Positions 1 to 22,973 of a stretch of 30,490 bases of DNA are shown here, piece by piece. The translations under genes and the position numbers were made by a program. The notes beneath the pieces were generated by a model that saw nothing but the letters and a program-made list of their open reading frames with translations, was not told the origin of the DNA and did no database searches. This DNA comes from Entamoeba histolytica HM-1:IMSS (taxonomy: Eukaryota; Evosea; Mastigamoebida; Endamoebidae), in assembly GCF_000208925.1 (NCBI RefSeq), contig NW_001915013.1, positions 1-30,490 of the forward strand, read 5' to 3'. How positions within the stretch are numbered: the stretch's first letter is position 1; every line of letters starts with the position of its first letter.

Positions 1-462
1 GAATTTTAGTCAAGCATATATTAGAAGTGTATTACCTCCTGAATTATGGAAGAGAATCGAGAATGTAGCATTTGAACCAAATGTTGTGAGAAGCTATGAA
101 CGCTTGAATTATATTTCAGTGCCGGAAGCTATTAGTACACATTCATCTGATGATTATTATCATAAAATTCATATTGGTTCAAGAACAAATCGAGAAGATA
201 ATAAAGGTACTATTTTAAGCCAGCTGATTTTGAAAGAAGAGGATTGCATCAATATTTATATAAACAACCTCATTTTAATAAAATAGAAAGTGGGAAAGAG
301 AATTATGAAATGATGAAGAATGTTCATAAACAATTAAAACATTGGGGAACAAGTGATAAACGTACTGATTATGAAAAAGTATTACTTAGAGTATCTCCTG
401 ATGATGATAAAATTAATCATTTTAAAACAATAAATGGAAAAATTAAATTTTATAATAAATAA
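1..462 (+). pseudogene. C-terminal part of long unknown gene (left-arm copy)
   Basis: Partial: the gene enters from beyond base 1 and is the mirrored copy of the 3' third of the gene at 9739-11176. The reading frame shifts by one base near 213, so the first part ends early at 286. The downstream frame is open from about 215 to a TAA at 460-462. The C-terminal part is rich in Lys, Asp and Asn. Function is not recognised. The same frameshift in both arms means it predates the duplication or was copied by assembly. Confidence 0.6.
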
Positions 463-768
463 TCAATTACTTTCTTTCTTTGGTTTTGTTTCTTCTTCTT
501 TCTTTTTATCTTTTATTATAAATCTATTCTTGTATTCTTTCTTTTGTTCCTCTTTCTTTTTGGGATGTCCCACATTAATCCTTTTTTTTCTAGCTATTCT
601 ATAGACTAAGCTCCAGTATGGTTTCTTTAGTTCTTTTATTTCTTCATCTTTTGTGTATTCTTCAATGGAATTGACTAATTTGACCATGGTGTCTATAAAT
701 TCATCTGCATCCATATATACAAACTTACCCATAGCATGGTCTGCTATCATGTCTTTAATGGTTGTCAT
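463..768 (-). CDS. 101-residue lysine-rich protein, MTT-KD family (left-arm copy)
   Basis: Identical copy of the gene at 9433-9738. Starts MTTIKDMIADHAMGK and ends in a TGA stop, with a strongly basic Lys/Glu tail after residue 70. It abuts the convergent gene fragment that ends at 462. A shorter relative lies at 18393-18599. Function unknown. Confidence 0.7.
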   Translation of the reverse strand: MTTIKDMIADHAMGKFVYMDADEFIDTMVKLVNSIEEYTKDEEIKELKKPYWSLVYRIARKKRINVGHPKKKEEQKKEYKNRFIIKDKKKEEETKPKKESN

Positions 769-836
769 GTATGAATGATTAAACAGATCGAAATAAATAG
801 TTTAAATAGTCAATTTATCTCTTTTATGGTAGTACA

Positions 837-2411
837 TTATTCATACTCGTACTCATATTCATATTCATATTCTATTTCTGGTTCCACTTCTTCTATTTCT
901 TCTACATTTTATTCTGCTTCTTCATTTACATCGACGTTTTCGTTGTTATGTTTAAAGTTATTCCAATATTTTTGTTGATCTTGTAATGTTAACTCTTTTG
1001 GAATGTCTTCAACTCTTAAGTCTTCTTCTTCTTGTTTTATTATTGGTTCAATCTGTTCTGTTAGTATATTTTTAGAATCGCTTTTGTCTCTTTTTTGTGA
1101 TGGATTCGAATAGAATAATATGTCTTTAGCAAGTAATCTATATCTTTTTTCTAATTCATCAACTTCATGCTTACGGGTTTTAACGTCATCGAAGAGTTCT
1201 TTATCATCGATTTTTGTAGTAAGCTTCTTAACTTCTTTGACTTTTCGTTATTTCTTAGCAATAACTGGTTTTTTAATTTGTTTTTCTTCTTTCTCTTTAT
1301 ATTCTTCTCTTTTCTCTTCTATTTTTTAATTGGTAATGTATCATTCATTATTTCATTATTTTGAGCTTCTTCTGTTTCGATTAATGCTTCATTTTGTGGA
1401 TGTTCTATTTTTGTTTCATTTATTGCTTCTTCTCTTTCTTCTTTCTCTTCTATTGGTAAATAGTGTTGTAATTATTCTAAATGTATTCCTCGTTCATAAT
1501 CTCTCTTTTCTTGATATTCATTAGTACTTCTAAATGATGTTTTCGTTTTGAGTTATCTCTATTTTTTATCTATCCATTCTTTAATGGAATGTCTATTCTC
1601 TCTTGGTGGTTTAGGTAGTATAATATTTCTATCTGGTTCTTTTTCATCTTTATGTATTTCTATTTCTTCTTCCATTGCTTTATCTTTTATTTCTTCAAGT
1701 ATTTGTGGGATTTTATCTTCTTTAATGTCCAATAGACTTTTTTCTTTAATTATTGAGCCATTTATGATAAGTCCTTCTTCTTGTGCTTTTATGTATTCAT
1801 CTATATTTTGTCTATTATTTTCTCTTATTATATCTCTTATTTCTAATAATTGTTTTGCCATTTCAGCTTCGTTTGAAGCATCTATTCCTGCTTTTTGTAA
1901 TATCTTTGTAACTGGACTAGTATAGGTTAATATATCTGAAGTATCTTCTGGACTAATTAATTCATATAAAGGTAATTCTTCTTGAAGCTCTTTATCATTG
2001 GTATCAATGTTATCATCTGTTTCTATGTCTATAAGTTGCTCATTCTTATATTCATTTATGTTTGGATCATCAAATATATCTAATTGATTCATTTTCATAT
2101 TTACATCTACGTCTTCAATTATTGAATTCTTTGTTTTATCAATATCAATAAGATTAATTAATTCTAGTCTATCTGTTGTATCTATTTCGATATCTGGTTT
2201 ATAGAATGTACCATCTGTATAATTATCTGGATGTAAATCAACATCATCATCTTCTTCAAAGTAATAATCTTCTCCATTATCTGGATCATATATGTTATTT
2301 ATTTTATTGAATATATAATCATTGTAATTATCATAGTATTGGTTGTTATGAATACTTCTATAACTTCCCCATTTTCTTTTTAACACATTTGGTCTATACC
2401 AATAACTCATT
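837..2411 (-). pseudogene. Long acidic membrane-anchored protein (left-arm copy)
   Basis: Mirrored, apparently identical copy of 7790-9364. The open part runs 1559-2411 from MSYWYRPNVLKRKWGSY to a TAG, followed by coding-like sequence interrupted by stops and one frameshift. Upstream of the Met the same frame stays open into the non-repeated DNA and adds a hydrophobic stretch (LLSFIFILI), so a membrane segment could precede the Met. See the right copy for detail. Confidence 0.6.
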
Positions 2412-2492
2412 ATTAAAATAAAAATAAAAGATAAAAGAAATAAATAGATTAAATTATTTCCGTTTGAATTCAACCATGTCTCAATTATTCGT

Positions 2493-3874
2493 TTACTTTT
2501 GTATATCATTATCTTCTTCTGATACACCTTCAATGAGAGTTGAGTCTTCAGCATTTAATATTGGTTCTTTTCTCTTTAATGGCAAATCAAATACATCTCG
2601 TCTAATTACCTCTTCTAATGGTTCTGACATTTGTAAATCATTTAATATTTCATCTACATAAGCAGCATCTATATCATCTATATTGTCAAATGGTGGTAGT
2701 TCTTCATGTAATTTGTAATTGGCAGCTATTGCATTTATTAAATTTGGTGGTAATTCTCCATATAATTTTTGTAACATTGATATTCTATCATTGTCACTGT
2801 CATTTTCAATATATAATTTCTCCTTTGTAGTAAGTACAACAGTGTTTTTATCTAGCCAGTCTCTATCTCCTTTATTTCCTGCTAAAGTCTGTAAATCTTT
2901 AAAACTACCTGGATTCAATACTATAATGGTGGGCATAGTTATTTCATCTAAATGTCAATATTATACATTGACTCTTGCTTTCTCACCTCAAGTTGAAATA
3001 ATAGCTTTGAAGTCTTCACATTCTATTGAGTTCAAACTTGCATCATCAAAAAGTCGATAGTCGTATTCTCTACTTTCATCATAGCCATCTGCCATGATTC
3101 TTCATCGGAATTCATATACTTGTTTGTCTTTGAGGAGATCGTTGATAAATTCAGTCTTTCCTCGTTTGGTTTCTGAAACAATCACTAAGGCGGGTGGCTT
3201 TTTAATGTCTACTGTTTCTAGAGTGTGCATCCACACTCTTGCTCCCTGGACTACTGGATTTGTTTCTTTCCAGGGACTCAATTTTATATTTATTCTGTTT
3301 CTTCTTTCTCTGCTATGTTGTTTGTCATACATTTCGCTGAATTTTTTCATTGTTCATTACCCAGGCTGGGCTTATATTTCTTAAATAAGCGATTGCTTCA
3401 GCTTTTGAGTTCATCCTAAGGGATTGTTCTATCATCGAATCCCCAACCTTGTACCCCTTTGTCGTCTTTAAATTACCATATTCTTCGAAGACAGCTTTTG
3501 TTTTGTGTTTTTTACTTTGGTTTTTTATGTCATCAATAATACTCAGATATGAACCGTCGAAAGCGTCTAATTTTGTAAACGGACTGAAATTTATCTTCAT
3601 TTCTTTCCCATTGATATTTACGAATGGTTTTCTCATTATATCTACTTGGTTTTCTAATATAAAGAAAACATAGCCATGTTTGTTATTTCCTTCTGTTGTC
3701 TTACCATAAGCTAGATATTTTATATTCTCTTTATTTGTCTTTGTTGAGCACCAAGTCGTTAAAGCTTCTTTCATTGTCTGTAATGTTGGGGGTAGTATGT
3801 AAGTTCTCGAAGTTGATATATGCAAAACCCGCGATTGATTTAAAATGGTAATAGTTTTGTTTATTTGAATTCAT
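2493..3874 (-). pseudogene. rep: CRESS-type Rep (left cassette), degenerate
   Basis: Replication initiator of the CRESS-DNA virus type: HUH endonuclease followed by SF3 helicase. The likely start is the ATG at 3874. A motif-I-like stretch (FAYINFENL) follows, then a frameshift near 3805. The HUH site reads NKHGYVFF, so the second His of HxH is lost. The motif III position reads IIDDIKN, with Asp in place of the catalytic Tyr. The helicase keeps SETKRGKT (Walker A with Ser for the first Gly), YRLFDDASL (Walker B) and PTIIVLNPG (motif C). An acidic tail follows. Stops at 2988-2990, 2961-2963 and 2955-2957 (TGA, TAA, TGA) and a frameshift near 3340 break the frame. Aligned with the Rep at 6377-7753 it is clearly homologous but diverged. 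Confidence 0.75.
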
Positions 3875-4018
3875 TGTTGTTTTTTTTTTTTTGTTCTTTA
3901 AGGTTTTTTTTATATTTTTTAATTTGTCTGTTTTTAAAAAAGTGTCTGTTTGAGTCTTAGGTTTTAATCTTTTTATTATTTAATTTTTTTTTGTTTTTAT
4001 TTATTTATTTAGAAAAGA

Positions 4019-4291
4019 ATGTGCAACGGTATTCTTGTTACTACTCTTTCAGAAATTATGCAGAATATCAAAGAACAGCTGGATTTCCATTTAGAACGTG
4101 ATAATTTTTTGTTTGTTCGTTGTTTAATTTATTGGATTTCTTATTTCCAGAGAAGATGGACTTTTGAAAATTATAAGTTCGATTCTCTGGTTATGAATTA
4201 TTTGGATTTCTTTATTGAAGATTGTCACTCTCTTCTTATTGGAGGTGAAAGATTAGCCAAGCTTCTTATTGCTTTAAGAAATTATACTTGA
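4019..4291 (+). CDS. 90-residue helical protein, family A (left cassette)
   Basis: Intact ORF starting at an ATG, divergent from the left Rep. It is rich in Leu, Ile, Phe and charged residues and probably all helical. It aligns with the 91-residue protein at 5833-6108 over most of its length (LSEIMQNI with LSSIVQDI; CLIYWISYFQRR with CLIYSIMYFIRR). Conservation of length and pattern against a diverged partner argues that it is a real gene. Function unknown; the position next to Rep suggests a replication or regulatory accessory role, which is inference only. Confidence 0.65.
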   Translation: MCNGILVTTLSEIMQNIKEQLDFHLERDNFLFVRCLIYWISYFQRRWTFENYKFDSLVMNYLDFFIEDCHSLLIGGERLAKLLIALRNYT

Positions 4292-4474
4292 TACAAGGGG
4301 ATGCTTATTGTCACAAATATTATACTAGTCATTTCATGTATGAAATCAAGATTTTATTCTTAATGAACATTTTGATTGAAACACTTCCAAAGAACAGTTA
4401 AATAAACTATTAAGAATAATACTATTCTATTATTTAATGATACTACCATCTTTATATAGTTATTATATTATTTG

Positions 4475-4829
4475 ATGTATGGATCAATGCATAAAAATGA
4501 TAGATATGTTTCTGAAGAAGAAACAGAAATAGAAGACAGAGCTTTAAAATTAGCGGATATCAATTCTTTTTAACAGATTTAAAGAGACTGACTGAAACGT
4601 GGAATGTGTTATGTAATAGTTTTGATATATCATTAGGCAATGATCTATTAAGTTGTGTCGCGTCAAGTCTATGACCGAAGGCTATACTAAAACAATAGAA
4701 GAATTTGACAATAAAATTAAAACGTTCAAAAGAAAGAATTTCCTTTTAATTAAAACGATAAAAGAAAAAAGGAAAAGAAGGATGAAGAGAGTAAACCAAG
4801 AAGAAGAACAGTGGAAATATTATAATTGA
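4475..4829 (+). pseudogene. Broken small basic protein
   Basis: A coding-like run begins at the ATG at 4475 and stops by frameshift near 4570. It continues in a second frame to about 4670 (LTDLKRLTETWNVL), then in a third frame to a TGA at 4827-4829. The C-terminal part is highly basic (IKEKRKRRMKRV). The total would be near 118 codons. Composition is coding-like and unlike the AT-only spacer on both sides. Not recognised. Confidence 0.4.
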
Positions 4830-4925
4830 ATATTTCTTAATTAATTTAAAATTTTGGTATTTATTTTTGTTATTTAAACAATAAAAAGAAATAAAAAGCA
4901 TTCAATTAAAATGATCAATATCACG

Positions 4926-5184
4926 AATATACTTACCTGAATCAAGTATATTAAGTAAGAACAAAAGAGGACCATAAACCAATAAATTGGAATGAATATC
5001 TACAATGAGATATTCGACTATTTATTCATTTAGTCCGAGTATTTCAAATGATACTTACATTCCCAAACACGGAACCAATAAATCAAACCATATAATACTA
5101 TTTCAGTATTATTATTCATGGATTGACTTGGCTTCACTCTCGCCTCCTTAGCAATAGCTGGGAGTAATACTGAGAGATGCAGCT
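4926..5184. promoter_or_regulatory. Hairpin cluster at the centre of the inverted repeat; possible origin
   Basis: Five inverted repeats lie in about 260 bases without a gene. AATATACTT/AAGTATATT (4926-4934/4944-4952) has a 9 bp stem. GAATATCT/AGATATTC (4994-5001/5008-5015) has 8 bp. AGTAT/ATACT (5038-5042/5051-5055) has 5 bp. ATAATACT/AGTATTAT (5092-5099/5105-5112) has 8 bp. AGCTG/CAGCT (5156-5160/5180-5184) encloses AGTAATACT. The fourth hairpin is centred at 5102, against the repeat centre at 5100.5. Its minus strand reads TAGTATTAT, one base from the CRESS nonanucleotide TAGTATTAC, but here partly in the stem rather than a loop. Confidence 0.5.
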
Positions 5185-5433
5185 TGTTACAAATACCATT
5201 AAAAAACTTTGAATGCTATATACAATAAAAATGTTTAAATAACAAATTAAATGATTGTATGAGGTAATAAAATGCCTATTATATTATAATTATAATAATT
5301 ATAATAAAAATAGAAATTGCCTGCTTTGTTTCTTTTGCCTGTCTAAATGTCTGTTACATCTTAATATTTAAACTGTTGAAGAGGGGATAACAAACGTATC
5401 AATAGCACGTGTGACTCTCCAGAAGAAAGAAGC

Positions 5434-5752
5434 ATGCAACAACATCTGGGCAATATAAAAATGTCCGATTTAATAGATTACTTCAGAAGTATTGATGACA
5501 TGAAGGTAACTCTGTTCAAATTTTTTAGAATGCTTCGATAAGGAACAGAGAATACCATGCAACTTGCCCACGTATGATATGCTAATGGAGAAAGAAGCAG
5601 AACATGTGAAAGAAATTCACGATATGACAGAAGAAATGATGGAAAATTATGCAGAAGTCATCATGTTATATGAAGAAAAGGCATCAGAAAGTGAATGAGT
5701 AGAGTTAATAAAGAGAATGGAAAAGAAACCAAAAGTTACTAAAGATAATTAA
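5434..5752 (+). pseudogene. Broken small acidic protein
   Basis: The ATG at 5434 opens MQQHLGNIKMSDLIDYF and the frame ends at a TAA near 5537. A shift at the T6 run near 5520 opens a second frame rich in Glu, Met and Lys (YDMLMEKEAEHVKEIHDM). This runs to a TAA at 5750-5752, with one in-frame TGA at 5696-5698. Predicted to be helical. It occupies the place opposite the broken gene at 4475-4829, but the strand is not mirrored and homology is uncertain. Function unknown. Confidence 0.4.
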
Positions 5753-5832
5753 AATTAATTTAATTCTTTTTAATATTAATTTTGGTTTTAATAAATAAAA
5801 ATAAATAAAATAAAAAAATAATAAATTAATTA

Positions 5833-6108
5833 TTATTCCAAATCATTAACGAAATGGAAATTTTCTAACAATTCTAATAAACCTCCAAGTTTATTAAATC
5901 GTTGAACCTTAGTGCAAGAATCAACGAAACATGTTAAACAATAAAATAAAACATCACTATAATTATAGTGTGTCTCCTCAAACCTCCTAATAAAATACAT
6001 GATAGAATAGATTAGACATTTAGATTCTAAATCTAAAGTTTCACTTTCGAGGATATATTTACAGGTTTCGTTGATGTCTTGCACAATGCTAGACAAGAGG
6101 GGGAACAT
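5833..6108 (-). CDS. 91-residue helical protein, family A (right cassette)
   Basis: The frame is open upstream to 6177, but the ATG at 6108 gives 91 residues. This matches the 90-residue partner at 4019-4291 and aligns the two N-termini (MFPLLSSIVQDI with LSEIMQNI). It is intact and divergent from the right Rep, with Leu, Ile, Tyr and Cys-rich helices and no clear signal peptide. A third, more distant member is at 18817-19142. Confidence 0.65.
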   Translation of the reverse strand: MFPLLSSIVQDINETCKYILESETLDLESKCLIYSIMYFIRRFEETHYNYSDVLFYCLTCFVDSCTKVQRFNKLGGLLELLENFHFVNDLE

Positions 6109-6376
6109 CGAATGAAATAAAAAGTACTCCAGTTTAAATAACACATGAAACGTGTAAACAACACGACAGACAGGCACTTAAACAGACAATTCTAAATTAA
6201 TTGAATTATATTATTATAGTTTGACAGACATTCTTCTACCTCATTCATTACCTCATACATACAATAAACAGACAAAATAGAAAATTCCAGGGATAATAAA
6301 TAGTTCATCTTACTAATATCAAACCATTCAATTGAATGTGACATAAACCAAAGGAAAATATTACGAGTTCAGATCA

Positions 6377-7753
6377 ATGCACAGACTCGTAACAATTAAT
6401 TTTATACCAGATGAACAAATGCCAACCGATACAATAATCAAAAACGCTATGGAACAATAGTGTACTACAAGAAATAAAGAGGCATTAAGTAAATCAACAA
6501 GAGGACACAATAAACACGTGCACATGTTCTTTGAACTAGATGAAGTTGCTCATAGTCGCAAAAAAACCTTGTGTACAGCTTAATGGAGAGAAACATTTTG
6601 TTAAATTTACTAAAGTAACTGAAAGTGAACAGTATGATGGAAGTTTTAAAAACATAATAGAATATTTAAAAAATAACATATTAAACATCCCGATAGTGGA
6701 GCTGTATTTAGTGAGATGGGCAAATTAGAAACGGACAGGGGAAGATTTGGAGATAAAGATATAGGTAAAGCGCTAAAAATGCCAGATCTTGAAGAAGCAC
6801 ACGCTTATTTAAAAAGTGTTAGTCTCAAGGGTTATATGAACACTGTTCAAAATTTTGACAAGATATGGAACCAAGAACACGACAGAGATAACTATCGACG
6901 TATTAGAATTAAATTGCAACCTTGGAAAGAAGATAATTATCTTGTCAAAAATAGTAGAATCCGGTTAGAATCAATGTTAAAGGGAAATAAAAAAGAATCA
7001 AAACTCTGGTACTAGTTAGTGATACACGAATGGGTAAGACGGAATTTGTAAATGACCTGCTTAAAGACTTAAAAGTGGATGAATTTAGAAGTCATTTTAT
7101 GCTCAACAGACACAATGAAAATGTTATATATGATATCAGATTATTCGACGATGCGAATTTAAATGACATAACTTGGTCAGAGTTTAAATCACTAACCAGT
7201 ACTAGGAGAAGAGCATATTACAATAAACAATAAAAATTCACATGTAAAAGTGACATCGATTCCAACTATTTTAGTTTTAAATCCAGGAAGTTGGAAAGCT
7301 TTACCACGAACAACTAAAGAATATGAAGACTTCGATTGGCTGGAGAAAAATACAGTAGTGCTACAAACCAAAGAAAAGTTGTTTATTGAACCACCACCTA
7401 AAGCAGAAGCAGTACAAGATAAAAGTAAATATGATAGATTAGATCCCAAACTAGTTGAAATGTTTATGGAGAACGAAGTTGAAGAAGATGTTAGTTTAGA
7501 TGATATGGGAGATGACACAATAGATGATTTAAATGAAATAATAGAAGAATTAGAAGAAGAAAGTATGCCTCCTCCGATAGTACTTGAAGAGCCAATGTCA
7601 GTTGAAGAAAACAGAGAGAAAAAGAAGTCTTTAATATTATCTCTGTTAAAAGAGAATAATAAAGCAATACTACCACCTAAAGAATCAGATGTTGAATTAA
7701 CTCAAAAAGCTAGAGAACTAGCAAATAGGTGGTTAGGTGGTAATTTTAATTAA
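6377..7753 (+). pseudogene. rep: CRESS-type Rep (right cassette), frameshifted
   Basis: HUH endonuclease plus SF3 helicase. The ATG at 6377 opens MHRLVTINFIPDEQ (motif I region). Motif II, HNKHVHMFFEL, keeps both histidines of HxH. The motif III region IIEYLKN keeps a Tyr. The helicase shows SDTRMGKT (Walker A, first Gly replaced by Ser as in the left copy), IRLFDDANL (Walker B) and IPTILVLNPGSW (motif C), then DWLEKNTVV and an acidic tail. The frame is broken by a TAG at 6458-6460, where the left copy has Trp, and by shifts near 6540, 6690, 7000 and 7235. The catalytic motifs survive better here than on the left, suggesting it was active until recently or that some breaks are sequencing errors. 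Confidence 0.78.
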
Positions 7754-7789
7754 CTCTTTTTTTGGTTTATCTTTTATTTTTATTTTAAT

Positions 7790-9364
7790 AATGAGTTATT
7801 GGTATAGACCAAATGTGTTAAAAAGAAAATGGGGAAGTTATAGAAGTATTCATAACAACCAATACTATGATAATTACAATGATTATATATTCAATAAAAT
7901 AAATAACATATATGATCCAGATAATGGAGAAGATTATTACTTTGAAGAAGATGATGATGTTGATTTACATCCAGATAATTATACAGATGGTACATTCTAT
8001 AAACCAGATATCGAAATAGATACAACAGATAGACTAGAATTAATTAATCTTATTGATATTGATAAAACAAAGAATTCAATAATTGAAGACGTAGATGTAA
8101 ATATGAAAATGAATCAATTAGATATATTTGATGATCCAAACATAAATGAATATAAGAATGAGCAACTTATAGACATAGAAACAGATGATAACATTGATAC
8201 CAATGATAAAGAGCTTCAAGAAGAATTACCTTTATATGAATTAATTAGTCCAGAAGATACTTCAGATATATTAACCTATACTAGTCCAGTTACAAAGATA
8301 TTACAAAAAGCAGGAATAGATGCTTCAAACGAAGCTGAAATGGCAAAACAATTATTAGAAATAAGAGATATAATAAGAGAAAATAATAGACAAAATATAG
8401 ATGAATACATAAAAGCACAAGAAGAAGGACTTATCATAAATGGCTCAATAATTAAAGAAAAAAGTCTATTGGACATTAAAGAAGATAAAATCCCACAAAT
8501 ACTTGAAGAAATAAAAGATAAAGCAATGGAAGAAGAAATAGAAATACATAAAGATGAAAAAGAACCAGATAGAAATATTATACTACCTAAACCACCAAGA
8601 GAGAATAGACATTCCATTAAAGAATGGATAGATAAAAAATAGAGATAACTCAAAACGAAAACATCATTTAGAAGTACTAATGAATATCAAGAAAAGAGAG
8701 ATTATGAACGAGGAATACATTTAGAATAATTACAACACTATTTACCAATAGAAGAGAAAGAAGAAAGAGAAGAAGCAATAAATGAAACAAAAATAGAACA
8801 TCCACAAAATGAAGCATTAATCGAAACAGAAGAAGCTCAAAATAATGAAATAATGAATGATACATTACCAATTAAAAAATAGAAGAGAAAAGAGAAGAAT
8901 ATAAAGAGAAAGAAGAAAAACAAATTAAAAAACCAGTTATTGCTAAGAAATAACGAAAAGTCAAAGAAGTTAAGAAGCTTACTACAAAAATCGATGATAA
9001 AGAACTCTTCGATGACGTTAAAACCCGTAAGCATGAAGTTGATGAATTAGAAAAAAGATATAGATTACTTGCTAAAGACATATTATTCTATTCGAATCCA
9101 TCACAAAAAAGAGACAAAAGCGATTCTAAAAATATACTAACAGAACAGATTGAACCAATAATAAAACAAGAAGAAGAAGACTTAAGAGTTGAAGACATTC
9201 CAAAAGAGTTAACATTACAAGATCAACAAAAATATTGGAATAACTTTAAACATAACAACGAAAACGTCGATGTAAATGAAGAAGCAGAATAAAATGTAGA
9301 AGAAATAGAAGAAGTGGAACCAGAAATAGAATATGAATATGAATATGAGTACGAGTATGAATAA
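7790..9364 (+). pseudogene. Long acidic membrane-anchored protein (right-arm copy)
   Basis: It starts MSYWYRPNVLKRKWGSY 36 bases after the Rep stop; a hydrophobic stretch (LSFIFILI) is encoded just upstream in the same frame. The first 284 codons are open and very rich in Asp, Glu, Ile and Asn. After a TAG at 8640-8642, coding-like Glu/Lys-rich sequence goes on in the same frame through stops at 8646, 8727 and 8880. It then continues after a one-base shift in the A6 run at 8874-8880, in a frame with TAA at 8951 and 9290, to a TAA at 9362-9364. It ends in a Tyr-Glu repeat (tatgaa microsatellite). Either one broken gene of about 525 codons or a real 284-residue protein followed by relics. Function unknown. 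Confidence 0.55.
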
Positions 9365-9432
9365 TGTACTACCATAAAAGAGATAAATTGACTATTTAAA
9401 CTATTTATTTCGATCTGTTTAATCATTCATAC

Positions 9433-9738
9433 ATGACAACCATTAAAGACATGATAGCAGACCATGCTATGGGTAAGTTTGTATATATGGATGCAGATGA
9501 ATTTATAGACACCATGGTCAAATTAGTCAATTCCATTGAAGAATACACAAAAGATGAAGAAATAAAAGAACTAAAGAAACCATACTGGAGCTTAGTCTAT
9601 AGAATAGCTAGAAAAAAAAGGATTAATGTGGGACATCCCAAAAAGAAAGAGGAACAAAAGAAAGAATACAAGAATAGATTTATAATAAAAGATAAAAAGA
9701 AAGAAGAAGAAACAAAACCAAAGAAAGAAAGTAATTGA
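9433..9738 (+). CDS. 101-residue lysine-rich protein, MTT-KD family (right-arm copy)
   Basis: Intact from ATG to TGA. The N-terminal 70 residues (MTTIKDMIADHAMGK, then ELKKPYWSLVYRIARKK) match the whole 68-residue protein at 18393-18599 in pattern (MTTLKDIL; LIKHAYWKIVWII). The C-terminal 30 residues are a charged Lys/Glu tail that may bind nucleic acid. It is convergent with the gene ending at 9739, with no gap between the stops. No known domain recognised. Confidence 0.7.
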   Translation: MTTIKDMIADHAMGKFVYMDADEFIDTMVKLVNSIEEYTKDEEIKELKKPYWSLVYRIARKKRINVGHPKKKEEQKKEYKNRFIIKDKKKEEETKPKKESN

Positions 9739-11176
9739 TTATTTATTATAAAATTTAATTTTTCCATTTATTGTTTTAAAATGATTAATTTTATCATCAT
9801 CAGGAGATACTCTAAGTAATACTTTTTCATAATCAGTACGTTTATCACTTGTTCCCCAATGTTTTAATTGTTTATGAACATTCTTCATCATTTCATAATT
9901 CTCTTTCCCACTTTCTATTTTATTAAAATGAGGTTGTTTATATAAATATTGATGCAATCCTCTTCTTTCAAAATCAGCTGGCTTAAAATAGTACCTTTAT
10001 TATCTTCTCGATTTGTTCTTGAACCAATATGAATTTTATGATAATAATCATCAGATGAATGTGTACTAATAGCTTCCGGCACTGAAATATAATTCAAGCG
10101 TTCATAGCTTCTCACAACATTTGGTTCAAATGCTACATTCTCGATTCTCTTCCATAATTCAGGAGGTAATACACTTCTAATATATGCTTGACTAAAATTC
10201 AATTGGTATGGATCATCATCCATCAATTTGTGTTGAATAGTTAAATCATTCAATTTATCAACAACAATATCACTGACTAGTTTAATATCATTCAAATACT
10301 TTATTAAAGCCAAAGGAGCAGCAATACCAGACATTTGATCTACATTTGTTGAATTTAAACATCTCTCCCCCTCTGGTGTTGTTTTAAAACAATTTCCATT
10401 AACACGAATAATCTTTCCATTATACAAAACAGGCAATGTCAAATTTATACTCTCAGGATGAGTAAGATAATACAAAGCTAATTCTTTCTCACTAAAGACA
10501 GTAGAAATATATATTATCAACAATATTTGGATTTTTCTCTATTGCCACCTTCATTAATTCAAGTGCAGTATTCCTCTCAAATAAATCTCCATTCTTATAT
10601 CTCGTTTCTAAATATTTATATAAATTATTTCCTTTCAACGCCTCATTAAATTCATTAAATTCTTTAATATTAAAAATACTACTTACACCAAAAGCTTTTG
10701 CAATATCATTAAAATACTTTGCTCCATATTTTTATATCCTTCTTTAATCCCTTGAACCATTGAAACATCTAAATGAGCAGATGGATCATTAACACTCTTA
10801 CCACCTGTCAATTCACTATATTTATCTTTTATATAATCCTCACGATTGTTATTGGTTTCTTTTCTTCAATAAAATCATCATCTACATCAATAACCATTTT
10901 TCTCATTCTTTGAGGTTCTTTTTCATCTAATGTTTCTTTTCTATTTGGTCAAGGTGGAGTATAATATACTCCTTGATTATTATTCTGTAATATATCACTC
11001 GTATACTTAGAAGTATTAAATGGTTTATATTTTGTTTGATCAACTCTCATAGAAGTACTAAAAGGATGATATTGTTGCTGAGTATCTCTTCTTATTCCAT
11101 CATAATTAAATCGTATTGAACCATATCTTCTTTTATGAAGATTTAATCGTTGTTTTCTCTTCTTAACCAAACACAT
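9739..11176 (-). pseudogene. Long unknown gene with multiple frameshifts
   Basis: The ATG at 11176 opens an Arg/Lys/Tyr-rich N-terminus (MCLVKKRKQRLNLHKRRYGS). An in-frame TGA at 10949-10951 is followed, in the same frame, by clear coding sequence (RKETLDEKEPQRMRKMVIDV). Further single-base shifts lie near 10858, 10727 (a five-T run), 10510 and 9988, with the final TAA at 9739-9741. About 470 codons in all. The middle includes YGAKYFNDIAKAFGVSS. Each shift can be explained by one lost base, several in homopolymers. It lies 12 bases after the membrane protein gene on the same strand, so they are probably co-transcribed. Possibly a minor structural protein; that is inference from position only. 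Confidence 0.6.
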
Positions 11177-11188
11177 TAAAATAAAAAG

Positions 11189-11413
11189 TTAATTAGGGGT
11201 TAAAGTTTTTACTACTTCTAATACTTCTTCTACTGCATTCATAACATTCACTTGTCTTCTACTTTCAAAAAATGCAAAGAAACAGCTAACTATTAACATT
11301 ATACACGATAATATAAGCATGACTATTTTACGGATAATATTCCATGTACTTTCTTTAAACACATCTTCTGTACAATTATGCGAGTGATTAGAATCACTGG
11401 AGTCTGCACTCAT
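11189..11413 (-). CDS. 74-residue single-pass membrane protein
   Basis: Intact from the ATG at 11413. A polar N-terminal third (Ser, Asp, His) is followed by one strongly hydrophobic helix at about residues 29-49 (IVMLILSCIMLIVSCFFAFF), then a short amphipathic C-terminus. This suits a small viral membrane protein. It is head-to-head with the structural gene at 11635 and upstream of the long unknown gene on the same strand. Confidence 0.65.
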   Translation of the reverse strand: MSADSSDSNHSHNCTEDVFKESTWNIIRKIVMLILSCIMLIVSCFFAFFESRRQVNVMNAVEEVLEVVKTLTPN

Positions 11414-11542
11414 ATTATGAATTATTCAGTTCATCTCTTTATTCATATGATTCATTCTAGAAATAACTGTCCTAGTAATACACATGAAGTAGAATTTGTT
11501 TTTAATACCCCATTGAAATTAAATTAAATAAAGGAATGTGAG

Positions 11543-11550
11543 TATATAAA
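11543..11550 (+). promoter_or_regulatory. TATA-like box upstream of the 11635 gene
   Basis: TATATAAA stands about 85 bases before the coding region at 11635, in the divergent intergenic space with the membrane protein gene. It is a plausible core promoter, but such strings are common in AT-rich DNA. Confidence 0.3.
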
Positions 11551-11634
11551 ACTTCTCTTTTTGAATTACTCTTCAATAACACAAATTATAAATCATTTTG
11601 TAATTGTTTTAAAAGAGTTAAAATATTTAAAGCA

Positions 11635-12276
11635 TTGATTAGTCTCTCAATAGGTGAAATAAATGTAGAAGAAATAGGATTAAATTTTCCTATTGTTAGT
11701 ACTACATGGTTTCCAACATATATTCGTTCCAATATTGATCAAGACACTGCTGATGACAAAGATATAAATAAAGTAATTAATATGATTAATTCAAGTACTC
11801 ATTTACAACAACAAGTCTATTATCCAGGTGGAGCATTTCAAATTAATACAATTATTAAAGCTATGACATTACAAGAACAAAACTATTATGGACCTACTAG
11901 AGTAGAAGGATATTGGAAATATGATTCACCTGAACTTCAACCATTTACAAATGAAAATGTAAGTATTCCTTTTTATCCATGGTACTTCATAGGAGTAGAA
12001 ACACCAAATAACAATGATAATAAAAGTATTAAATTTAATTGTCAATGGTATATCACTGTTCATTTTGATAGATATATTTGCACTCCAATAGAAGAAGAAC
12101 AAACAATGAATTTACTTGATTTAAATGTCAATTTAACCAATGAAGAAATCAAACAAAGAGAAACACTCACATATCAAGCAGAAAATAATTCAACATATGA
12201 AAAAGTAACTATAGCATTTCCAGAAAAAGAAGAATCTACATTTATTTTAATTATAAAAGATAAACAAATATATTAA
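11635..12276 (+). CDS. 213-residue putative jelly-roll structural protein
   Basis: Open from upstream of 11635 to a TAA at 12274. There is no in-frame ATG near the start; the frame begins at a TTG, and a one-base error at the CATTGATT stretch could hide an ATG. It is rich in beta-type residues, Trp, Tyr and Pro (YYPGGAFQI, YYGPTRVEGYWKYD, FYPWYFIGVET), and IKFNCQWYITVHFDRYI resembles a final jelly-roll strand. The fibre-like gene follows after 20 bases in the same direction. I infer a capsid or penton-type protein; no family is firmly recognised. Confidence 0.55.
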   Translation: MISLSIGEINVEEIGLNFPIVSTTWFPTYIRSNIDQDTADDKDINKVINMINSSTHLQQQVYYPGGAFQINTIIKAMTLQEQNYYGPTRVEGYWKYDSPELQPFTNENVSIPFYPWYFIGVETPNNNDNKSIKFNCQWYITVHFDRYICTPIEEEQTMNLLDLNVNLTNEEIKQRETLTYQAENNSTYEKVTIAFPEKEESTFILIIKDKQIY

Positions 12277-12296
12277 TTAACTCATTTTTATCATTC

Positions 12297-12747
12297 ATGT
12301 CTATCATTAGCACGACAACCAAACAAGAAACTTTAATAAGAAAAGATGAATTAAATAAAAATACATTCAAAGTAACAGTGAATACAAATGATATAACTAT
12401 CGAAACAACTACAAATGGAATAACAACATTCACCAGTGAAAATTACATTGACCGTATTCAATTAATCAATCAAGTACCTGAACCAAAAATCCAAACAAAA
12501 GCAGTTACTATTACTGAAAATGGTTCATACACTATCACTCCAGATGATAATCTTGATGCACTTGATTATGTTTATGTAACTACAAATGTACCACAATATA
12601 AAATAGATTCTATAAAAATATATAACAACGGAAATAAATTAGCAACAGTAGCAACAGATACAATATATATTACAGAAAATAACACTGATATTGCAGATTT
12701 AATACCAGCAGATGGAAAATTACATAAAGTCGTAAATAATACAGACT
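12297..12747 (+). CDS. Fibre-like protein with phage-tail-type repeat (cut by gap)
   Basis: Starts at the ATG at 12297 and runs open into the scaffold gap, so the C-terminus is missing. It is rich in Thr, Asn and Ile. Around residues 66-95 it carries AVTITENGSYTITPDDN followed by ALDYVYVTTNVP. This matches a motif familiar from tail and surface proteins of Firmicutes phages and bacteria (V-TITENG-Y-TITPD-G-D-L--V-V-VNV). A receptor-binding or fibre role is likely. It is convergent with the capsid gene across the gap. Confidence 0.65.
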
Positions 12748-12847
12748 NNNNNNNNNNNNNNNNNNNNNNNNNNNNNNNNNNNNNNNNNNNNNNNNNNNNN
12801 NNNNNNNNNNNNNNNNNNNNNNNNNNNNNNNNNNNNNNNNNNNNNNN
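12748..12847. other. Scaffold gap of 100 N
   Basis: Exactly 100 unknown bases, the usual placeholder for a gap of unknown size. It removes the 3' ends of both the fibre-like gene and the convergent capsid gene. Confidence 0.99.
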
Positions 12848-13451
12848 GGATTCCATGCTGCATATAAAGTAGATTCAGTTAATACTTCAGCAGTCTTTAC
12901 TGTTGGAAGATAAATACTCTTCTCTTGTAATGAAGATGCAAAAGGTCTTCTTGTAATACCCATCTAGCTCCTGGATAATATGCTCTACTTACTGCACTTG
13001 AATATGAACTCACTTGATAAGGACCTGGTACTATTGGTACATTACTTAATACACTTTGTCCTTCTTGTGTTACTTGACTTGCTACTGCTTTATCTATACC
13101 ATTTCTATCCCATGCAGTGATAACATTAGGAAATGTCATTGCAGCTTGACCAAATGTATTGTAAACAATTTCAGCTGACACTGACACTCCATCTATTTTA
13201 AATTGATCATACATTCCAGCATAATATTGGAAGAATTCCATGCCGCAAAGTAATTTAGTAACATTCATTACAGTTGTAGCACCATTAGTATTTGCTGGAA
13301 TAGCTAATTGTACTGTTTCAGTAGCATTCAACACTACTTGAGTTGAATCTCTTTGTTGAAAAGCAGCTTTTAAATTCCCAACCATAGTACTTCTTAAATT
13401 TCTTCTAGTTGAAGTTGGTCTAGTAGCTGTGGCTCTTCTTGTACGTCTCAT
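12848..13451 (-). pseudogene. cap: CRESS-like capsid protein, frameshifted and cut by gap
   Basis: The ATG at 13451 opens an Arg-rich N-terminus (MRRTRRATATRPTSTRRNLR) of the kind that binds packaged DNA. A beta-rich jelly-roll body follows with YAGMYDQFKIDGVSVSAEI, ITAWDRNG and SSAVSRAYYPGARW, all typical of circular ssDNA virus capsids. A one-base loss in a G run near 12962 moves the rest (ITRRPFASSLQEKSIYLPT) into another frame, which stays open to the gap. Separate in sequence from the larger capsid at 20645-21928. Confidence 0.72.
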
Positions 13452-14510
13452 TTATTTCAATAACTCAGTTGAATCTAAATTAGAGTTTAAATAGATGAAG
13501 TTATACACATAAACAATAAACTGACATTAATCGTTCATAAAATTTTAATCCTATTAAAAGTGGAATAATTAATAACATGTTTAATACATGGCTATAAGAA
13601 TTACAACTTTGTAATGATGAATTGAAATGTGTTGTGCATGTTGTTGTTTATAAAATATTTTTATCGATTAAGGAATAACAAATATTATACATAAATAGAA
13701 TAATGACTACATTAAAGAATTGTGATGTATGATTTTATGATGATATATCAATTCGTATGATAGTTTTGTACCATAATAATTATTTATACAATTGTCACAA
13801 CATCTACTATCACAAATATATACATGTATATAATAATAACGATGTCTCTATGAAATTAATGATGTTTTTTCTGTTATTATACTTTCTATTATCATTATTA
13901 ACATTATATATTTCTTTCTGTCATTATTTCTAAAATTGTTGTATAATAATTATATACAAAAATACATCTAAAATAAATAAATTAAGATCTAATAATATCA
14001 TAGTTTTTGATGAATTTCAAGTGTTAATAGCACACGTAGTTTTATTAAGTAGTGTTTCTTAGTTTTTCATATGATATTTGTGATAAGATGTGGATTATAT
14101 TACTTTGTAAGAGGCATAATTCATGATAAGATATATTACAAACATCGATTGAATCATATTCTCTGTATATTTCTTTTATTACTGAATGATTCATGTAAGT
14201 TTTACATACTGAAATATCAATTTATATTAGTAAACAATATATCCATTCTCTTTTCTATATACAAATATGAATTAATTGAATATTCAACTTCTTTCAACAT
14301 AATATATAACCAATAAGTATTTATAAACAAATAATGAGATAAATTGTGGTAATACAATTATCAATATCATTTTCACGAGAAATAAAATACAATGAAGAAT
14401 TAAGAAATAAAATTCTCATAGAATTATTAACTTTGTTTACTAGTTATTCTTAATTGACATTTAACTGATACTTTTATTTAATTACGACATTTTAATGAAA
14501 AATAATTGTC
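13452..14510. other. AT-rich stretch without recognisable genes
   Basis: Only short, low-complexity frames occur here, none with a domain or coding-like composition. It is probably decayed spacer. Confidence 0.6.
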
Positions 14511-19272: not shown

Positions 19273-19290
19273 TCCGTGTCACAGTATTAA

Positions 19291-19411
19291 AGTGACCGTA
19301 ATGTTAGGGAAGTTTCCCGAAAAGTAGGGACAACAAATCCCTAACGACAAAGGTGTCACACAAGTCGGGGTAATACTATCCCGACTTGTGACTTTGTGTT
19401 ATATATAACAC
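19291..19411 (-). repeat. CRESS replication origin, copy 1
   Basis: 121 bases, repeated directly at 20225-20345 with few changes. The stem ACAAGTCGGG (19361-19370) pairs perfectly with CCCGACTTGT (19381-19390) around the loop GTAATACTAT. On the minus strand this loop reads TAGTATTAC, the circovirus-type nonanucleotide nicked by Rep. GTTAGGGA and TCCCTAAC (19304-19311/19339-19346) form an inverted pair beside it. A perfect 16-base TATA palindrome at 19397-19412 closes the repeat. It stands downstream of the truncated Rep. Confidence 0.9.
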
Positions 19412-19412
19412 T

Positions 19413-19670
19413 ATAATTTTTTTCATTTCCTTCTCTCTCGTCTTCCTCCTCATGCAATCGCCTTTCAGTTGCCTAGCATAGGTACTTCCTACGGACTCCA
19501 TCCTCGTTGCTTGATACGGAAACAAAAGAAAATTATAATGCATTCGTACTTGACTAACCTTTTCATGAACACGAGCCGCTCACGCGGCCCGTGGAAAACT
19601 AAGGGACGTACAGAAGAGAGTCACTACGTGAACTAAACTTTAAAGCGCTTCGCGCACTAAGGCGAAGGAA
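19413..19670. other. CRESS intergenic region without a gene
   Basis: It has higher GC than the host-like DNA. It includes the short hairpins GCCGC/GCGGC and GCGC/GCGC, and the GGCGAAGGAACT string (19661-19672) that also occurs at 20607-20618 beyond the capsid stop. Otherwise it does not match the intergenic region at 20346-20644, so it probably comes from a related but different viral genome. Confidence 0.55.
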
Positions 19671-20180
19671 CTAAATAGTTAAAAATAATTCAATTACTTT
19701 CTTAGTCTTTCCTATTCCACTGTTTCCATAGATATAAAATACTTTAATATCAGGTTTGTAAACATCATCAACTGTCATAGACTGATCAACAAATTTAACC
19801 TTATTCCAAGTAGCAAATTCACAATAAGGTAAGTCACCTGGATCATCAATAGCTAACAACTCCCTCACTGTATGAGCTCTTCCCTGCTTAGGAGCTTCTC
19901 CTATCTCATCGATTATATCAGAATGCTTCTTTATATAATCTATGTTCTGCTTATTACTCCCCCTGCATTTCTCAATATGTGCCCCATGCATTAATTCTAC
20001 AGAAAGTCTAACATCCTTCTCAAAGCACACAAATATATGGACATGTTCATGTCCAGTTGTAGGTGCTACTTCACGACAACTAATAAGATATTTAAAATAA
20101 GGCTTGGTTGTCAAGGCATCTTTAACAGCAGCATAATGCTGTGGTTGATTAAGTGTTAATTGGAAACGTCTGGCGTGCAT
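19671..20180 (-). pseudogene. rep: CRESS Rep, truncated after Walker A
   Basis: Rolling-circle initiator. From the ATG at 20180 it shows motif I FQLTLNQ (residues 6-12), motif II with HVH at 46-48, motif III NIDYIKK with the nicking Tyr 82 and Lys 85, and Walker A GNSGIGKT at 152-159. Then it stops at residue 169, losing Walker B, motif C and the arginine finger. The last codons and the stop lie in 20 bases identical to the end of the capsid gene (19680-19699 and 20631-20650), so a deletion joined Rep to a capsid 3' end. The nicking domain looks intact; the helicase is lost. Origin copy 2 lies about 120 bases upstream. Confidence 0.85.
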
Positions 20181-20196
20181 TGTTTTTTTAAGATCC

Positions 20197-20279
20197 TTAG
20201 GGTTTTTTAGGGCGCACGATTTTCAAGTGACCGTAATGTTAGGGATGTTTCCCGAAAATTAGGGACAACAATCCCCTAA
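20197..20279. promoter_or_regulatory. TTAGGG/CCCTAA iterons next to origin 2
   Basis: TTAGGG at 20197-20202, 20207-20212, 20239-20244 and 20259-20264, and CCCTAA at 20274-20279, lie between the Rep start and the origin hairpin. Several also occur beside origin 1. Short repeats flanking a CRESS origin are usually Rep-binding iterons. Confidence 0.55.
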
Positions 20280-20345
20280 CACAGAAGGTGTCACACAAGT
20301 CGGGGTAATACTATCCCGACTTGTGACTTTGTGTTATATATAACA
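20225..20345 (-). repeat. CRESS replication origin, copy 2
   Basis: Direct repeat of 19291-19411, 934 bases away. Stem ACAAGTCGGG 20295-20304, loop GTAATACTAT 20305-20314 (TAGTATTAC on the minus strand), stem CCCGACTTGT 20315-20324, TATA near-palindrome 20331-20346. It sits upstream of the truncated Rep and on the 3' side of the capsid gene, as in a circular genome with both genes on one strand. Confidence 0.9.
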
Positions 20346-20439
20346 TGGCGAATGTAGCTGAACTAACCAGACTTTTAATAGGAGGGGAAAAAAAAAGATT
20401 TATGGGAGTTAAAGTATCATTAAGGTACCTTTGCTGTCA

Positions 20440-20560
20440 CCCGACTGTTTTTTTTCCCCCCGTCGCTGCGTCGCTTGCGGCTCCGCTCCGGCTCCGCCTC
20501 CGCTCCCGCCTGTCCTTCGGACCGCTCCTTGCTCCCCAGGGGGGAAAAAAAAAGATCGGG
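20440..20560. repeat. Large GC-rich hairpin
   Basis: TTTTTTTTCCCCCC (20448-20461) pairs perfectly with GGGGGGAAAAAAAA (20539-20552). The stem extends outward with CCCGA (20440-20444) to TCGGG (20556-20560). The 77-base loop is extremely GC-rich, with an inner GTCC-TTC-GGAC hairpin at 20512-20522. Located between the capsid stop and origin 2, it may act as a terminator or replication/packaging structure. Confidence 0.8.
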
Positions 20561-20644
20561 AGACAGAGAGGTATCTTAAAAAAACTATATTAACTCTTCT
20601 ATATTTGGCGAAGGAACTTTCGTAGTTTTCTAAAAATAATTCAA

Positions 20645-21928
20645 TTACTTATTCTTAAGTTGTTTAAATTTGGTATAGAACGTTATTTCAAAATGTTCCA
20701 TTCCACTTATTATTGGTGAGGCATGCAAACCATAAAAATCCCATGCAGATGCATATGCATCAGTTGGGCGATGAGGTTGTCCAATTGTTATTGATTCTGA
20801 AATGGGTATTCCATTAGCTGTAAAGAAATATCCAAATAGAATAGGATCAAAATATGCAACATCTTGTATAGAATAAGAATACTTTTGTTTATTAGTAGGA
20901 TTATCAACTGGATAAGTCTTCTTGGTTCCATTCATTTTAATATATCTCATTAACTTCCTTTTAGATATCTGTTGGTCTAATTTATCTGTAATTGTAATTC
21001 CAGTTTGATTTGAATCTTGATTATTAGTTATCTCATCTACCTTATCTTCTAAATAAGGCTTAACATAGAATTTAAATGGCTTTGTCATATCATATACTTT
21101 ATAAGTCTTAGGCTTATTAGGTCCATAATCAAAGTTCTTTAATTTATATCTAGTATCTTTACATGTTAATGTATAATCCATACTTTCTGGATCAGTTGGT
21201 AATTCCATTGAATAATAATTATCTTTTTCAAATAACACATGCATATTAAATGTTACTTGTGGATAATATAGTAATCCAGTAGCATCTTTATCATAATCAA
21301 ATGCATTTAAACGTTGTACAGGATCTATAACAAGATTAACAGTACTTCCACCCGTTCCAATAACTTGACTTGAATTAGTAGCAATACTTTTAGGCATATA
21401 AGGTAAAGCAACACTCGTTTTAACCTTTGGTATCCATTTAACCTTTACTCCACTAAATTTCCAATAATCATACATATCACAATAAGAATCCCATAGATTT
21501 CCCATTACATTATGATCTAAATATGGATTCCATGCTACAAAAGTAGGTGGTGATAATGCTATTTGCTCTGTTCTTAAAATACTATTAGCAGTATCTACAG
21601 ACTGCACAGTCATAAATTTCTGTCCAATCATTCTAAAATCCAATTCAGCTTCAGCAACAGGTACAGCAATTCCATTATTAGAAGGATAAGCAGCCATACA
21701 TAATATTTGTGGTAAACTATCTCTCTCAGGAATAGCAATAAACTCTACTATTGAGCAAACAAGCTTACTCTTTAATTTAACAGTATTTGGTTGTGATAAC
21801 AACCGGCGTCGTTTATAATATCTTCTTCTTTTTCTATATACACGTCGTTTATATACACGCCTACCACGACGAACAGTAGGTCTTTTAGAAGTCTTTCTTC
21901 TTGTTGTTCTCTTCTTTAAACGAGCCAT
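20645..21928 (-). CDS. cap: CRESS virus capsid protein, intact (427 residues)
   Basis: Single uninterrupted frame from the ATG at 21928. Residues 1-43 are almost all Arg, Lys and Tyr (MARLKKRTTRRKTSKRP and on), the DNA-binding arm of circovirus-type capsids. The body is beta-rich with YCDMYDYWKFSGVKVKWIPK early and MEHFEITFYTKFKQLKNK at the end, matching first and last jelly-roll strands. It is longer than circovirus capsids (about 230 residues), in the range seen in protist-associated CRESS groups. It is downstream of Rep2 on the same strand. Base composition is closer to the viral genes than to the flanks. Lack of damage suggests recent capture. Confidence 0.82.
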   Translation of the reverse strand: MARLKKRTTRRKTSKRPTVRRGRRVYKRRVYRKRRRYYKRRRLLSQPNTVKLKSKLVCSIVEFIAIPERDSLPQILCMAAYPSNNGIAVPVAEAELDFRMIGQKFMTVQSVDTANSILRTEQIALSPPTFVAWNPYLDHNVMGNLWDSYCDMYDYWKFSGVKVKWIPKVKTSVALPYMPKSIATNSSQVIGTGGSTVNLVIDPVQRLNAFDYDKDATGLLYYPQVTFNMHVLFEKDNYYSMELPTDPESMDYTLTCKDTRYKLKNFDYGPNKPKTYKVYDMTKPFKFYVKPYLEDKVDEITNNQDSNQTGITITDKLDQQISKRKLMRYIKMNGTKKTYPVDNPTNKQKYSYSIQDVAYFDPILFGYFFTANGIPISESITIGQPHRPTDAYASAWDFYGLHASPIISGMEHFEITFYTKFKQLKNK

Positions 21929-22066
21929 ATGAGAATTATAAGAAAATGAGGTTTAAATACGTGGTGAATCATCACACTCTATGAGTTTTAAATGAAAAAT
22001 AAATGAATTATTCATAAAATAAAAATAGAAAACTAAAAGAAATAGAAAAAGAATTAGTTAATTAAA

Positions 22067-22922
22067 CTAGTCAAGAGTCACACTCTTCCAAGTGAAGGAG
22101 AGAGAATCTTCTTCTTTAAATTCGAAGACATCAAAGCGTCTTCGAATAGCTTCTGCATCCCGCTCTTCTGGGAAGCATTCATCAATGGTGTATTGACTAG
22201 TGACTACTAAATTATAGTCACTAGCATTAACAGCTATAGCTCCTCCCTTCTTCTCAGCAATGAAGGGGTAACGATCGCACCAAATTTTAAAGTAGTGTGC
22301 AATAAATTTACACATTGTTGGGTCAGCATCTTCTATCAATACACATTTCTAGCCATTATAGCCATCCCACCATTTATTAAGTAGTTTATTAAATACTTCT
22401 TCAGGAGGGAAAGCCTCATGAGCCATACGAGACTTTCCACACCCAGTGGGACCAACTAGCCATATATTTTTATGAGCCAGCTCGCCTTCGTAATTTTTTA
22501 GGCTTCAGCTCAGCAGACCTTCGATCTGCATATGACTGGTATCTAGCATACAACTGAGAATCTTTATCAACTTCACCAGCCTTTATGGTATCAACAAAAT
22601 GGTTCCAAGCATCTTGTAAGCCCTTGCGACCTGATGGGGTGGCTCCCCATTCATAAATATCATCATCCTTATCGCAATATGATCGAATAGAAGTATAATC
22701 TCCTGGAGCTGGATCCCAATGCATTCCTGGGATAAAGGTGGGTCTAACTCTTGGATTAGCATAAGCAAGTAAGACATGAGTATGAATACGACAACTTCGT
22801 TGGCCAATGTGCTGACCAATTAAACCATACACAACAGGCTGTAAAGCTATAGCAGCCAACTGATCAGAAGTTGGCTCAAATAAAGTACCAAACCATCTTC
22901 TAGCACGAAGCACAGCACACAT
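22067..22922 (-). pseudogene. rep: CRESS Rep 2, full length but frameshifted
   Basis: The frame is open from a GTG at 22973, but the ATG at 22922 puts motif I (RWFGTLF) at residues 9-15 as expected. Motif II is RIHTHVLLAY (HxH intact), and motif III SYCDKDDDIYEWG has Tyr and Lys. A shift at the A6 run (22493-22499) leads to Walker A GPTGCGKS, then WWDGYNG followed by a TAG at 22349-22351. Walker B VLIEDADP, motif C NLVVTSQYTIDECF and the arginine-finger region RRRFDVFEF complete the helicase, ending at a TAG at 22067. The TAG falls where CRESS Reps have Gln or Glu. GC is higher than in the flanks. It precedes the capsid gene on the same strand. Confidence 0.85.
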
Positions 22923-22954
22923 GTTTACTGGGTAATACTGTGCCAATAAACATG
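22920..22954 (-). promoter_or_regulatory. CRESS origin hairpin overlapping the Rep 2 start
   Basis: CATGTTTA (22920-22927) pairs with TAAACATG (22947-22954). After one mismatch, TGG pairs with CCA, leaving the loop GTAATACTGTG (22932-22942). The minus strand of the loop reads CAGTATTAC, a recognised CRESS nonanucleotide form. The Rep 2 ATG lies in the stem. It differs in stem sequence from the two origins at 19.3 and 20.3 kb. Confidence 0.8.
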
Positions 22955-22962
22955 TATTTATA
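22955..22962 (-). promoter_or_regulatory. TATA box for Rep 2
   Basis: TATAAATA on the minus strand, directly upstream of the origin hairpin and about 35 bases before the Rep 2 ATG. This supports the ATG at 22922 over the upstream GTG. Confidence 0.5.
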
Positions 22963-22973
22963 GATCTAGCCAC

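Follow-up and report, generated by a model that had tools for sequence, protein, structure and literature searches.

The locus analysed here raises the question of how an inverted repeat with identical arms can come to enclose two strongly different initiator genes. It lies in a stretch of 30,490 nucleotides (the window), which is contig C239 (NW_001915013.1) of the Entamoeba histolytica HM-1:IMSS genome (16,953,004 bases, 392 contigs); other contigs of the same genome carry labels of the same style. An earlier note, made from the sequence alone, had proposed cassette exchange, gene conversion of the arms, or a dimeric linear element whose initiator genes evolve apart, with a fold-back assembly as the alternative. 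Our analysis indicates that an endogenous Entamoeba virus is probably present in the window as two truncated copies, arranged head to head and carrying different types of replication initiator protein (Rep).

A base-by-base comparison bore out the identity of the arms at sequence level, since positions 7766-10200 repeat the reverse complement of 1-2435 without a single difference and a mismatch first appears at 2436; the 2447 nt given by the repeat finder for this pair include an extension over further partial matches. Chance is excluded as the source of a 2.4-kb exact match. Because the contig itself ends at base 1, 2435 is a minimum length for the arms. The two Rep regions inside the arms (left on the minus strand, right on the plus strand) are homologous and strongly diverged, and the arms stop immediately behind them, both as the earlier note had claimed. 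The proposed mirror symmetry of the cassettes about position 5100 was lost on alignment, the two halves of the spacer not being mirror images. Instead, collinearity with contigs C69 and C142 shows that the copies meet head to head near 4278-4290, with ~1.85 kb of the spacer belonging to the left copy and ~3.5 kb to the right one. Collinear blocks link the right copy to C69 over 4281-13499, the N gap included, and the left copy to C142 over 4289-1. A fold-back of a single molecule is disfavoured by the non-palindromic spacer and by the two different Reps inside it.

The two copies are members of a family. Searching the genome with gene 2, the gene behind Rep, gave nine places on eight contigs, two of them in the window and the others on C142, C69, C123, C189, C11, C174 and C48, and three annotated E. 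histolytica proteins (P0003, P0025 and P0027) are 100% full-length matches to C123, C11 and C142, respectively. The better-kept copies present the order small open reading frames (ORFs), Rep (459-489 amino acids), gene 2, gene 3 on the opposite strand, two genes of ~320 and ~270 amino acids, and a capsid gene of 507 amino acids, again on the opposite strand. The capsid frame is open in five copies (C189, C48, C174, C123 and C69); only its start is present in the window, and a capsid search of the genome listed none for C142 or C11. Searches with two short peptide patterns each gave no relatives in IMG/VR, none were found in a phage collection, and a PHROGs search gave nothing useful.

Both Reps of the window are broken frames, and the right one contains three TGA, two TAG and 11 TAA codons within its alignment. 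Across a separate Rep alignment of 18 rows the residues H66, H68, Y115, G239-K240, D277-D278 and N321 are invariant, and these include two histidines, a tyrosine, the lysine of Walker A, the aspartates of Walker B and the asparagine of motif C. The motifs and a Foldseek search thus identify the HUH nicking domain and SF3 helicase that define the Rep of the Cressdnaviricota. Pfam models of circular Rep-encoding single-stranded (CRESS) DNA viruses matched Rep weakly, whereas Foldseek, with a model of moderate quality (pLDDT 69.5), ranked the Vientovirus Rep first (6.6e-08) and Rep68 of adeno-associated virus (AAV) 2 second (6.3e-06), so that the top structural match is a CRESS Rep and not, as for an NS1-type initiator, a parvovirus protein. 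For the capsid model (pLDDT 58.6), nodavirus and circovirus coats were among the jelly-roll proteins matched; whole-chain TM-scores are low for both models, which are used here for fold assignment only. The capsid start bears a weak likeness to the Circoviridae capsid family PF02443 (E-value 0.006, 17.3 bits, under the family cut-off of 36.2), alongside the structural matches to circovirus coats. No PDB sequence matched the Rep or capsid profiles.

Three types of Rep can be distinguished. The left Rep of the window (type A), compared piece by piece, is closest (68-85%) to E. nuttalli P0022 and to two metagenome proteins, P0019 and P0020, its best match elsewhere in the genome being C142 (80%); the right Rep (type B) groups with P0001-P0011, and a third type is found on C11, C48 and C174. 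Both window lineages also have members among metagenome proteins and in Entamoeba species other than E. histolytica. As far as sequence comparison goes, the Rep lineages are therefore older than the window and the two Reps did not diverge in place, and the earlier suggestion that the initiators evolved apart within one dimer is rejected. As a separate observation, the type A Reps of the window and of C142 (C142:16158-17667) shift frame at the same A run, by either a shared mutation or a shared sequencing error.

The genes behind Rep have a different history. For three pairs among C189, C69 and C123 the synonymous divergence (dS) of Rep is 1.0-1.3, with a dN/dS (nonsynonymous to synonymous ratio) of 0.10-0.14, while dS is 0.078 for gene 2 (C189-C69) and 0.056-0.126 for gene 4 (six pairs). 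By this measure the divergence of Rep is old and that of genes 2 and 4 young, from which it follows that Rep cassettes move while the backbone is shared; the same backbone with a different Rep is a trait of the family, of which the window is the extreme case. The contrast favours the proposed cassette exchange, since in the copies compared Rep has diverged much further than the genes that follow it. Gene conversion also gains support, since C123 and C142, which have different Reps and lie on separate contigs, are 93-100% identical over the equivalent of window positions 8915-10225 (in steps of 150 columns).

A variable block within gene 2 (8179-8471) has three allelic forms: type A is carried by C142 and by the two arms of the window, type B by C123, C189 and C69, and type C by C11, C48 and C174, with ~20-40% of residues matching between types and at least 77 of 98 within types (C174 being covered over 55 residues only). 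In eight of the nine copies the allele agrees with the type of Rep, the exception being the right copy of the window. A simple left-to-right conversion was rejected: the type A block would fit, but over their first ~115 bases the arms resemble types B and C (91-95%) more than type A (82%), and this part does not have the gap of 8-9 residues seen in C142. The arms are thus a mosaic, and overwriting from right to left is favoured at their inner border. As nested endogenous virus DNA the structure of the window is ordinary; what is unusual is the exchange of the initiator on a homogenised backbone.

The exactness of the arms has to be weighed against an assembly artefact, in which similar copies were collapsed to one repeat unit and the consensus was used twice, making the identity, and possibly the linkage on the left, artificial. 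A collapsed repeat is suspected because the left arm ends just short of a polymorphism of gene 3: its mirror position, 10200, lies 8-25 bases before the branch between a long and a short form (10208-10225), the short form of C142, C189, C123 and C48 lacking 10225-10872. The inner end of the arms coincides with the end of homology between types A and B, and C69, C189 and C11 also end within repeats. On the other hand, repeats at other contig ends were not forced to be identical (96.5% in C48, 96.8% in C11 and 99.6% in C189, but 100% over 179 bases in C69), the near-identical stretches behind the different Reps of C123 and C142 occur on separate contigs, and a collapse itself requires very similar arms. 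We consider the artefact somewhat unlikely as the source of the identity, although assembly may have inflated its exactness. The annotated protein CL6EHI_145300 matches four pieces of 6779-8639 exactly across the right junction (residue 269 is unmatched); it was not used as independent support because the 19.92-Mb contig of its assembly suggests a reference-guided build.

What kind of genome gave rise to these copies is indicated by their ends. Nine palindromes were found at copy ends or joins, two each in C123 and C69 and one each in C189, C174, C48, C142 and C11. A scan of 184,581 bases recognised a T-shaped apex at five of them (both of C123, both of C69, and C174) and at none in three first-order resamples; by eye the C189 palindrome resembles a damaged T. 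The apex pattern had five matches in the genome and none in a reversed control. The left hairpins of C123 and C69 fold at -68.9 kcal/mol (z -18.9) and -72.6 kcal/mol (z -20.8), and the stems have ~65-80 pairs with two inner mini-hairpins. The order of the latter, from outside inwards, is B-C at the left end of C123 and C'-B' at the left end of C69 and at the right ends of C69 and C123, and in a second type of hairpin it is B-C in C174 and C'-B' in C189. Each type therefore shows the inner palindrome in flip as well as in flop order, as in AAV-like rolling-hairpin replication. Genome searches with the two hairpins gave matches confined to C123, C69, C174, C189, C48 and C11, although such DNA searches can miss common words. 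From hairpin to hairpin, C123 measures 10.4 kb and C69 11.2 kb.

The type of hairpin agrees with the type of Rep at all five Rep ends and at four of five capsid ends. At the Rep ends, the first type is found in C123 and C69 (with a remnant of 20-25 bases in C189), the second in C11, and a third, unrelated palindrome in C142; at the capsid ends, the first type is found in C123 and C69 and the second in C174 and C48, the mismatch being C189, which has a type B Rep and the second hairpin. Genome hairpin and apex searches and folding gave no hairpin at the join of the window (z 0.53) and no hairpin relic at the end of its right copy (z -0.15). The hairpin termini of other copies suggest something near the dimeric linear element of the earlier note, but the join in the window has lost both of its hairpins.

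These palindromes could also belong to an ordinary circular CRESS virus, as the origin of a large circular genome that came to stand at both ends through integration of more than one unit. CRESS virus origins are short stem-loops, unlike the long T-shaped palindromes seen here. The length of the stems and the two mini-hairpins in flip and flop resemble parvovirus telomeres, and C123 and C69 have a whole palindrome at each end. For these reasons we regard the circular virus as rather unlikely, although it would suit the CRESS-type Rep, the circovirus-like capsid, the series of capsid end, palindrome and Rep end of the next copy in C142, and the small circular CRESS viruses known from Entamoeba (PMC7493932).

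A DNA transposon, or a composite based on the element ERE1, with captured viral genes and a terminal inverted repeat made of hairpin, flank and ERE1 repeat, would explain the inverted flanks of ~265 bases and AT-rich repeats outside C123, C189 and C69, as well as the AT-rich repeats that border the viral DNA on either side in C142 and C11. It is quite improbable in our estimate, since C48 has just 33 bases of the flank in common, the hairpins do not need the flank, and the capsid gene is open in five copies.

We infer instead that the virus was linear, had hairpin ends and a CRESS-type initiator, measured ~10-11 kb and was most likely copied by hairpin transfer. Head-to-head joins would be a natural product of hairpin transfer, and joins and ends would later have lost their hairpins by deletion, for example between 4278 and 4290. 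The Rep cassette would recombine together with its hairpin against the backbone that the copies share, preferably at the boundary between Rep and gene 2. The stretch from gene 2 to gene 3 of one window copy, most likely the right one, would have overwritten that of the other up to the Rep border, which would leave identical arms behind two different Reps.

Several points weigh against this interpretation. The join and the identity of the arms are read from assembled sequence, and base 1 coincides with a likely edge of the assembly graph. The genome has a single type A relative (C142), whose order of capsid end, palindrome and Rep end is also expected from a circle or a tandem. Four of the nine palindromes were not T-shaped in the scan, C189 keeps a hairpin at one end only, and simple insertion does not account for the ~265-base flank that recurs, inverted, at both ends of C123 and C189 beyond the hairpins. 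A rival is a circular genome whose single large origin palindrome came to stand at both ends on integration; the data are of integrated copies only, whose termini look linear, with the one serial join in C142.

Table 1. Features of the window and of related copies on other contigs.
Feature	Position	Strand	Basis
Left arm: gene 2 and end of gene 3 of left copy, cut by contig end	1-2435	-	repeat and collinearity
Type A Rep of left copy, three open frames (2493-2936, 3102-3350, 3325-3825)	2493-3825	-	ORFs, Rep alignment
90-amino-acid ORF upstream of Rep A, on the strand opposite to it, collinear with C142	4019-4291	+	ORF, alignment
Head-to-head join of both copies, without hairpin	4278-4290	.	collinearity, folding
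Left-end region of right copy, collinear with C69 starting just inside the C69 hairpin	4281-5382	+	alignment
114-amino-acid ORF upstream of Rep B, on the strand opposite to it	5833-6177	-	ORF
Type B Rep of right copy, pseudogene, 16 in-frame stops in alignment	6338-7750	+	Rep alignment
Right arm, exact reverse complement of 1-2435	7766-10200	+	repeat and collinearity
Gene 2 of right copy, residues 1-283 (mirror 1562-2410 on -)	7791-8639	+	alignment
Type A allele of gene 2 variable block (mirror 1730-2022)	8179-8471	+	alignment
101-amino-acid ORF in arm (mirror 463-768 on -)	9433-9738	+	ORF
Gene 3, long form, broken frame	9739-10871	-	ORF, collinearity
Genes 4 and 5 of right copy	10872-12747	+	collinearity
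Run of 100 N	12748-12847	.	sequence
Start of circovirus-like capsid gene; right copy stops before any hairpin	12848-13504	-	collinearity, capsid search
T-shaped terminal palindromes (L031, L040, L033, L038, L047)	C123:9379-9548, C123:19603-19782, C69:1042-1236, C69:12057-12234, C174:27174-27297		
~265-base flank outside hairpins	C123:9223-9372, C189:18365-18629 and 28865-29129, C69:784-1042		

Elsewhere in the genome, C48:1-1828 (L032) contains a second head-to-head pair, in which 1-650 and 1180-1828 are 96.5% identical, with a different centre and a left copy that is truncated where the contig ends. C49, C72, C82, C86 and C88 (14.4-16.8 kb) carry a second family, whose Rep is distant (23-27%) and whose capsid start is related (39-40%), the members of each pair lying ~5 kb apart, and another distant Rep (35%) occupies a 482-amino-acid open frame at C335:17970-19016 on a contig of 72.9 kb. 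The window itself carries a separate, higher-GC CRESS-like insertion at 19280-22973, with a piece of Rep at 19671-20180 (Pfam Viral_Rep, 2.6e-07), a 427-amino-acid ORF at 20645-21928 and a direct repeat of 131 bases at 19280 and 20215. No tRNA or Rfam match was found in the window. The AT-rich block at 27285-29533 (13-20% GC) is probably an ERE1 terminal repeat; a genome search with its right edge gave 44 matches, many of them near contig ends. In PMC2657916, ERE1 of E. histolytica is described with a terminal repeat of 2,221 bp; the block is of the same size, and the likeness is one of size and composition only. The AT-rich block differs from ERE1 in that it here flanks viral DNA.

In relation to known viruses, the copies combine features of separate groups. 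Parvoviridae, and AAV in particular, have an initiator with HUH and SF3 domains, a jelly-roll capsid, T-shaped terminal palindromes in flip and flop, head-to-head forms, and integrated copies with deleted termini. All of these have counterparts here, the terminal hairpin palindromes in copies outside the window, while the Rep fold is closest to CRESS Reps, the capsid to circovirus and nodavirus coats, the genome is about twice as large, and the host is a protist. The hairpin-to-hairpin lengths lie above the 4-6 kb of Parvoviridae, as stated in the abstract of PMC11357303. Mixtures of parvovirus-like and cress-like features are noted in PMC11071296, in the available part of which no mention of Entamoeba was found. 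Whole CRESS genomes in Entamoeba, called circular and assigned to Naryaviridae and Nenyaviridae, were reported by Kinsella et al. 2020 (PMC7493932), and these elements share with ours the host genus, a CRESS-type Rep, and the integration of Rep and Cap in the amoeba genome. The present copies are set apart by their size of ~10-11 kb, several extra genes and terminal T-shaped palindromes. Genomes of Naryaviridae and Nenyaviridae measure only a few kb. Nothing on hairpin-ended elements in Entamoeba was found in the open-licence literature, as represented mostly by titles and summaries.

Taken more broadly, the copies may represent a lineage of linear, hairpin-ended viruses of ~10-11 kb that Entamoeba carries or once carried. 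In this lineage parvovirus-like T-shaped telomeres would be combined with a CRESS-type Rep and a circovirus-like capsid, and the initiator would be exchanged along with its cognate telomere, as a cassette, while the backbone stays common to the copies; the window would be a head-to-head pair left after such an exchange and homogenisation of the arms. We find this proposal about as easy to defend as to doubt. If the hairpin interpretation is true, the family would bridge two modes of single-stranded DNA replication that are usually kept apart, the circular one started by CRESS Reps and the linear one of parvovirus hairpins, and the swapping of matched hairpin and Rep types as a unit would open the specificity between initiator and origin to study in a protist. 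These findings suggest that a family with hairpin termini merits specialist attention, and the window offers a PCR-sized case for whether inverted viral copies become homogenised in a living genome.

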